Below, piece by piece: positions 19,065 to 44,999 of a stretch of DNA of 64,000 nt. Made by a program: the position numbers and the translations under genes. Position 1 is the first letter of the stretch; every line of letters begins with the position of its first letter. This stretch comes from Sporosarcina sp. E16_8 (lineage in GTDB: Bacteria > Bacillota > Bacilli > Bacillales_A > Planococcaceae), in contig NZ_JADPRZ010000001.1 in NCBI RefSeq assembly GCF_017347095.1, forward strand, positions 62,001 through 126,000, read 5' to 3'. Under the pieces are notes generated by a model. That model saw only the letters and a program-made list of their open reading frames with translations. It was not told the origin of the DNA and did no database searches.

Positions 19065-19541
19065 TTATGCGGAAAAGTCGATTGCCAAACGGGCAAGTGC
19101 AATTTTATCCTGGTCGATTACAACCGTTAATTTTCTCGTCTTAATGCGCATTTCAACTTCTGCGCCCTCGGGACCATATGCCAACAAATAACCTTCGAAC
19201 TCTTTCATATCATTAATGGCTTCGTACGTTTTAATGAATACGAACTGTCCAATTGCTTTTTGAAAATCTTCTTCCTTCTTCAACGGACGCTCTGCACCTG
19301 GTGAAGACACTTCAAGAAAATAGTTTTGCGGAATTGGATCAGTACGGTCAAGCTCTTCACTTAACTTTTCACTAACTTGAGAGCACTGATCAATATCGAT
19401 GCTTCCGTTAGGTGTATCAATATAGACCCGTAAAAACCAATCTCTTCCTTCTTTAACGAACTCTACATCGACAAGTTCCAATTCTAGTTCCTCTACAATT
19501 GGGCTGGCGATTTTTGCGACTTCTTCCGTAATATTACTCAT
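19065..19541 (-). CDS. rimP: Ribosome maturation factor RimP, 158 aa
   Basis: Assists assembly of the 30S subunit. IASPIVEELELELVDVEFVKEG and the central FLEVSSPGAERPL motif identify it, and length is typical. It is the first gene of the nusA-infB operon. Its ATG follows GGGAGGGG and has a long leader of about 230 nt, which holds a terminator and, 23 nt before the start codon, a structured repeat also found before flhA. Confidence 0.95.
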   Translation of the reverse strand: MSNITEEVAKIASPIVEELELELVDVEFVKEGRDWFLRVYIDTPNGSIDIDQCSQVSEKLSEELDRTDPIPQNYFLEVSSPGAERPLKKEEDFQKAIGQFVFIKTYEAINDMKEFEGYLLAYGPEGAEVEMRIKTRKLTVVIDQDKIALARLAIDFSA

Positions 19542-19564: not shown

Positions 19565-19649
19565 CAAATACGCCTCGGCGTATTTGCGTCCAGATTTTGT
19601 ATCGTGCTTGCACGATAAACTACACTACAAAATCTGTGACATCCGCCGG
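19565..19649 (-). repeat. Structured element upstream of rimP (pairs with the one before flhA)
   Basis: Minus-strand order: CCGGCGGATGTCA, CAGATTTTG, an inner hairpin ATCGTG/CACGAT, CAAAATCTG, GACG, then a 10-bp hairpin CAAATACGCC / GGCGTATTTG. The same order occurs at 44888-44750. It lies wholly within the transcribed leader of rimP. Confidence 0.75.
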
Positions 19650-19712
19650 AGGCTTTAACCAACTTCAGTATGCGTTTGGACACAGCACTGAAATTGGTTA
19701 AAAAACAGTACA

Positions 19713-44749: not shown

Positions 44750-44888
44750 CAAACACATCCCGGAGTGTTTGCGTCCAGATTTTGAATTGAGCTTGTGCCT
44801 GCAGGACGCAGGTATTCAGCCTTTGCCGCAGGATGCGGCGAACTAAGGTTGCCTATTCACTCAATTCAAAATCTGTGACATCCGCCGG
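44750..44888 (-). repeat. Structured element upstream of flhA (pairs with the one before rimP)
   Basis: Minus-strand order: CCGGCGGATGTCA, a 16-bp stem CAGATTTTGAATTGAG / CTCAATTCAAAATCTG around a variable centre, GACG, then hairpin CAAACAC / GTGTTTG. It matches 19649-19565 in order and sequence outside the variable centre. In the terminal hairpin a T-A pair in the rimP copy is C-G here. Confidence 0.75.
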
Positions 44889-44998
44889 CCGACTAAGGGA
44901 GCCGCGTCCTGCGGCAACGTCGACACTAGTACGTCCTGTACGTCGCAGGCTTTTGGACATCAAGGAAGGATTGAACTACACCCTTCCTTGATGTCCAA
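44889..44998. repeat. Palindromic repeat module E with an 18-bp hairpin behind flhB
   Basis: A perfect 18-bp stem (44952-44969 with 44982-44999) encloses the loop ATTGAACTACAC, the same loop as in repeat copies A-D. It begins right at the flhB stop codon. Between it and the flhA element are GC-rich inverted segments such as CCGCGTCCTGCGG. It may act as a 3' stabiliser or partial terminator; the T-run after it is short. Confidence 0.7.
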
Positions 44999-44999
44999 A

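Follow-up and report, generated by a model that had tools for sequence, protein, structure and literature searches.

Elements of the IS200/IS605 and RAYT types are characterised by hairpins in DNA and by insertion without target duplication; the element described here shares the first trait and apparently also the second but, unlike them, shows no match to a Y1 transposase in a genome that holds 109 copies of it. Other small repeats offer partial comparisons as well. For instance, the REP sequences tagged with GTAG or CGTC are, in the account given in PMC3733652, short palindromes, in the CGTC group with stems of 8-9 bp and loops of 4-5 bases, dimensions that the terminal hairpin of our element (P3, with a 9-bp stem and a 4-base loop) fits, and CGTC REPs are without a dedicated transposase, as is the case here. 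By contrast, the GACG/CGTC beside P3 is paired within a second stem, P2, leaving no unpaired tag (of the 315 cells in which GAC of GACG faces GTC of P2, at pairs 17-308, 18-307 and 19-306, 311 are paired), and the whole is larger, with several hairpins. In the main text of PMC3733652, Bacillus is mentioned twice and neither Firmicutes nor Lysinibacillus is. The BOX elements of Streptococcus pneumoniae, as presented in PMC3049150, are modular (boxA, a variable boxB and boxC) and partly co-transcribed, and their mobilisation is proposed there only from a similarity to insertion sequences. The likeness to our element is one of layout only, both being small interspersed modular repeats with a predicted stable fold; the hosts are different, and the inserted unit is here RF01690 (Bacillaceae-1), which lies in the stem or upstream of it and in either orientation. 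This last family is listed by Weinberg et al. 2010 (PMC2864571) as certainly RNA and probably not cis-regulatory.

The window (the whole stretch of 64,000 nucleotides that was analysed) carries two copies of an element that is quite probably a non-autonomous, dispersed, modular and palindromic DNA repeat, similar to MITEs, REPs or BOX and present in Planococcaceae and some neighbouring Bacillaceae. The family is new and ordinary in kind; what is unusual is that its members nest with an Rfam family and are biased towards leaders. As the original prediction described, the two copies (19565-19649 in the rimP leader and 44750-44888 in the flhA leader, both of them minus-strand) carry the same ordered blocks when the sense strand is read directly, namely CCGGCGGATGTCA, CAGATTTTG, a centre, CAAAATCTG, GACG and a terminal hairpin, and they stop 23 nt and 26 nt short of the start codons given by the list of open reading frames at 19541 (rimP) and 44723 (flhA). 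The compensatory change is present too: at pair four of the terminal hairpin, copy 1 has T-A where copy 2 has C-G. The stem of 16 bp in the flhA copy was likewise confirmed. It had also been noted that the centres differ, which they do; the cause, which had been missed, is that the flhA centre is an RF01690 unit (cmscan). Two further features had escaped attention: the second RF01690 unit of the flhA copy, between AAGCCT and CCGGCGG, and the continuation of both copies upstream, through AAGCCT, into an extra hairpin (Table 1). RimP and FlhA, together with the upstream FlhB and PolC, score above the NCBIfam cut-offs.

Table 1. Coordinates, in the window, of the modules of the rimP (copy 1) and flhA (copy 2) leader copies
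Feature	Position	Strand	Basis
P3, terminal hairpin, copy 1	19565..19586	-	direct reading; covaries across copies
P2, copy 1: GACG, CAAAATCTG / CAGATTTTG arms and inner hairpin	19587..19636	-	pairs counted
Conserved AAGCCTCCGGCGGATGTCA block, copy 1	19637..19655	-	direct reading
5′ hairpin module, copy 1, outer stem TTTAACC..GGTTAAA	19654..19702	-	direct reading
P3, terminal hairpin, copy 2	44750..44771	-	direct reading
P2, copy 2, with nested centre and CCGGCGGATGTCA block; 16-bp stem 44776-44791 with 44860-44875	44772..44888	-	
RF01690 (Bacillaceae-1) unit inside P2, copy 2	44798..44865	-	cmscan 41.1 bits, gathering score 35
Second RF01690 unit, copy 2, opposite to core	44877..44942	+	cmscan 46.6 bits, gathering score 35
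5′ hairpin module, copy 2, directly 3′ of the flhB stop codon (flhB ORF end 45000)	44951..44999	-	

Read 5′ to 3′ on the sense strand, the element starts with a hairpin of variable sequence and content, whose outer stem is of the type TTTAACTTGATTCAGC..GCTGATTCAAGTTAAA, followed by the conserved block AAGCCTCCGGCGGATGTCA and by P2, in which GTC-A-CAGATTTTG pairs with CAAAATCTG-GAC to enclose an inner hairpin together with a bulge rich in purines. P3 is of the type CAAATACGCC-GAGG-CGTATTTG and gives way, mostly after GATT, to the flank. At some Lysinibacillus loci both P2 arms are altered (GGAATCGG with CCGATTCC) and, as judged by eye, the pairing is retained. Similar 5′ hairpin modules lie upstream of many copies in G217 and G219, the two genomes in which most copies were counted (see below), and a scan with two query versions placed the module within 150 nt of a same-strand core in 74 of 90 and 97 of 120 hits, in a set of 366 loci (1.78 Mb) many of which were picked for holding the element. 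Another small hairpin, of the type GGAGGGATGCAGTTCAATCCCTCC, is repeatedly inserted in or beside hairpins of the element (upstream in L002, L007, L012 and L013, and in the centre in L003). ARAGORN, a weak test of a tRNA-like 5′ module, found no tRNA in seven loci. Single-sequence folds pointed to an RNA switch in which P3 would alternate with a long-range helix between GCCTCCGGCG and the P3 loop. This candidate was rejected: in a comparison made by column counts only, one base of the P3 loop is split between G (66 of 111 rows) and A (40 rows), whereas few rows show any variation in the 5′ block, so that such a helix cannot covary.

The element is present in many copies. A search of the 4.38-Mb draft genome for the 22 bases CCGGCGGATGTCACAGATTTTG, with up to three mismatches allowed, gave 16 matches, five of them exact, and these are not due to chance, because a reversed control pattern has none. 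A covariance model built from 12 copies of the same genome recovers 22 there with E below 0.01 (150 of 1592 candidates scored) and, under stricter filters with 11 candidates scored per genome, finds matches in 162 of 261 genomes of the family. A fuller search of six genomes, with 150 candidates scored in each, gave 3, 16, 20, 24, at least 109 (G219) and at least 134 (G217) copies. An exact 19-base scan of GTDB genomes returned at least 119 stretches, and the names among the 80 matches listed are Sporosarcina, Lysinibacillus, Psychrobacillus, Solibacillus, Metasolibacillus, Bacillus, Siminovitchia, Fredinandcohnia and Arthrobacter; the covariance model confirmed the core in all nine loci tested from Bacillus and from the last four names in this list. 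The name Arthrobacter looks wrong for the genome concerned: in the record of Arthrobacter beigongshangensis REN13, five loci (L287, L301, L306, L315 and L323) have a GC content of 41-44%, and one of these, L306, matches L388 of the genus member G167 without a difference over 4.4 kb. Separately, four copies in G210 lie at contig starts (C5, C7, C39 and C50, bases 47-143), which suggests that near-identical recent copies broke the assembly. Literature searches among open-licence PMC papers returned none that describes the repeat in its title or in the opening of its abstract. Rfam gave no match to the core at the gathering score in the window or in four further loci, and with the E limit relaxed to 1 no credible match appeared in seven loci; the two units of copy 2 that exceed the gathering score (Table 1) are the nested RF01690 units and not the core.

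Orthologous sites in relatives are variously filled, eroded or empty. The rimP site is present in 68 genomes, and the 30 loci read by eye comprise nine filled sites (the seven closest genomes plus L099 and L100, which have another centre), three remnants of the 3′ end, 16 empty sites and two unclear ones (L096 and L103). At flhA, the reading of 29 loci gave four filled sites (L381, L382, L388 and L390), five with P3 and little else, four with weaker traces and 16 without the element. As judged by eye, the flhA copy of L388 has no RF01690, while that of our genome holds two units; therefore, nesting varies at one and the same site. One pair of rimP loci is particularly clear, as the empty L082 runs straight from the left flank of the filled L081 into its right flank; this single pair shows no obvious target duplication, the last two or three bases of the ends being ambiguous. 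More generally, no clear terminal inverted repeats or target duplication were seen. In common with MITEs, the copies are dispersed, intergenic and non-coding (2 of 92 contexts were classed inside an ORF), with sites that are present or absent. At rimP and flhA, the element is a mobile or once-mobile repeat.

The search for an enzyme that could mobilise it returned neither an autonomous copy nor a mobilising enzyme, and no long, gene-bearing version was seen in the 366 loci. The Y1 transposase profile (PF01797) had no match in 4 of 15 genomes, including G219 and also G185, with its 24 copies; an IS605 or RAYT mobiliser was consequently rejected, there being no Y1 match where copies abound. Our own genome yielded a single Y1 locus (L017, G000:C5:104896-108180), an IS605-like tnpA-tnpB pair with no BLAST match to the repeat. 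Among 53 Y1 and TnpB loci examined by BLAST, full-length repeat sequence was present only in L250 (G217), the other matches being short or of the RF01690 type. An origin of the element from a TnpB/omega-RNA end, which the 5′ module may resemble, was also rejected, as the BLAST comparison gave the full-length repeat in that one locus.

The stems covary strongly. In an alignment of 106 distinct rows from G217 and G219, which was fitted to the covariance model and so leans towards the structure, 97.2% of the cells are paired, and in 17 of the 27 pairs both sides have changed, in 202 cells altogether. None of 500 shuffles reached the observed covariation, and slid versions were at most 46.7% paired. 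A transition in a Watson-Crick pair gives either G-U or A-C, with equal chance if all else is equal, and selection on RNA tolerates G-U. The mismatches of the element are divided almost evenly, with 34 G-U and 37 A-C in this alignment and 19 and 22 in the 22 copies of our genome. The corresponding figures are 8 and 16 in 42 copies located up to 100 nt upstream of a sense gene, 9 and 7 in those farther upstream, and 7 and 11 where the downstream gene is antisense. When the core was run through the same pipeline as riboswitches drawn from the same genus (MAFFT and RNAalifold, keeping pairs whose commonest type is Watson-Crick), it gave 25 G-U versus 22 A-C (94 sequences), whereas the SAM riboswitch gave 38 versus 1 (26 sequences) and the TPP riboswitch 32 versus 5 (30 sequences), with Fisher p values of 1e-6 and 0.002 for cells that are not independent. 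The core figures exclude the pair at the base of P2, which is T-G in 78 of 94 copies, a point against the DNA reading, and with which they become 103 versus 22. As the element has no excess of G-U over A-C, unlike SAM and TPP, its pairing is probably maintained in DNA and not in the sense RNA, on a comparison with two riboswitch families only.

The original prediction had left the choice between an RNA-level role and a mobile repeat with a fold under selection. The second has gained ground from the dispersed copies, the empty and eroded orthologous sites and the strong covariation, with the qualification that this covariation looks DNA-level; the first has lost it, given the symmetric mismatches, the large G-U excess of the two riboswitch families and downstream proteins with no common theme. 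The prediction was to be refuted by copies at random strand and distance, with no covariation; in fact, covariation is strong and the strand is biased, a bias that may stem from insertion or from selection. If the repeat is mobile, its hairpins would have to form in DNA, either single-stranded or as cruciforms, and be recognised by the mobilising enzyme. Active copies would then keep compensatory pairs, and inserted ones would drift and accumulate G-T and A-C mismatches in about equal numbers. Copies in leaders would be included in the 5′ UTR and may adopt their fold in it, probably as a side effect, and the sense placement of the element before start codons would probably result from an insertion preference together with the loss of harmful insertions.

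This placement was assessed with a simple ORF-based gene call. In our genome, the downstream gene is on the same strand in 20 of the 22 copies, 17 lie within 60 nt of the start codon, and co-directional sites are 16 sense versus 2 antisense (p 0.0013). In G217 and G219, the 46 copies with the highest scores were used from each genome (out of 134 and 109); without the two inside ORFs, 90 contexts remained (+E+ 44, -E- 16, -E+ 21 and +E- 9), giving 44 sense versus 16 antisense (p 0.0004). The sense, pre-start-codon bias is real and is not separated from replication direction. It is possible, if somewhat unlikely, that orientation is set by replication, through insertion into one strand of the fork, and not by genes. 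In the same two genomes, with replication direction deduced solely from skew and gene strand in the loci retrieved, the element points with replication at 41 of the 44 sense sites, and lagging-strand genes have 3 sense and 4 antisense copies; however, these lagging-strand cases are few, 12 of 53 copies at leading-strand genes are antisense, and convergent and divergent sites show an excess of just 18 versus 12. Some copies are located downstream of a riboswitch and before the start codon, where they lengthen a leader that is already regulated, as in L003 (T-box at 1596-1814, core downstream) and L016 (TPP riboswitch at 1241-1344, core from 1495).

It has also to be considered whether a mobile DNA repeat was co-opted at some leaders, where P3, beside the Shine-Dalgarno site, would tune mRNA stability or translation. 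P3 is kept and the rest mostly lost at rimP in two of the three remnants (L091 and L097) and at flhA in L384, L385, L386, L401 and L408, and the sense bias is nominally stronger in the diverged copies of our genome than in the burst genomes G217 and G219, a difference that is not significant (Fisher p 0.22). Such co-option is nevertheless unlikely, as the mismatches of P3 alone are symmetric (16 G-U versus 20 A-C) and its retention may only mean that it is harmful to delete sequence near the start codon. Finally, a cis-acting regulatory RNA, in which a riboswitch-like or protein-binding fold near the start codon would control translation or mRNA stability, would also predict the non-random orientation and would suit the short distance to same-strand genes, the covarying stems and the survival of P3 beside the start codon in several eroded copies, but it is highly improbable, since wobble pairs are not in excess even in sense copies near genes, most relatives have no element at either of the sites examined and the downstream proteins of our copies, as judged by eye, share no theme.

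The preferred reading, that of a mobile DNA repeat, also bears on RF01690, which is nested in or beside the element in several copies, including that of flhA, and yet is a separate repeat. It has 89 matches in our genome, against 22 copies of the core, and 10 to 80 in five relatives. Among the 30 best RF01690 loci of six genomes, the core lies around or directly beside the unit in only 12 (a thirteenth core is more than 1 kb away), so RF01690 was rejected as a fixed part of the element. As judged by eye, 15 of the other 18 loci (all except L443, L449 and L470) place it in a different dispersed repeat with the blocks GAAAAGCG, GACAGGCATAAGACGG and CTTATGACCCGAGCG; this repeat hosts RF01690 in our genome and in relatives (L442, L444, L446, L448, L452, L456 and L461). 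The stems of RF01690 covary, and the named ones give 20 G-U versus 25 A-C (86 sequences); another count, of 50 versus 9, was driven by one loop-side pair with 38 G-T. These counts suggest that RF01690 acts in these genomes as a DNA-level module, transcription aside.

There may thus be, with about an even chance in our estimation, a broader picture in which Planococcaceae carry nestable mobile DNA palindromes (the core, the 5′ hairpin, RF01690 and at least one further repeat) spread by a mechanism that needs DNA hairpins, and in which RF01690, listed as RNA since it covaries, would be a DNA module and not a functional RNA. The element offers a large natural data set, with more than 100 copies in some genomes, on the spread of palindromic repeats with no evident transposase, and the count of G-U versus A-C mismatches is a simple check that may tell covariation at the DNA level from covariation at the RNA level. 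If this picture is correct, covariation alone has probably raised RF01690, and with it at least one mobile hairpin of DNA, to the rank of an RNA family.
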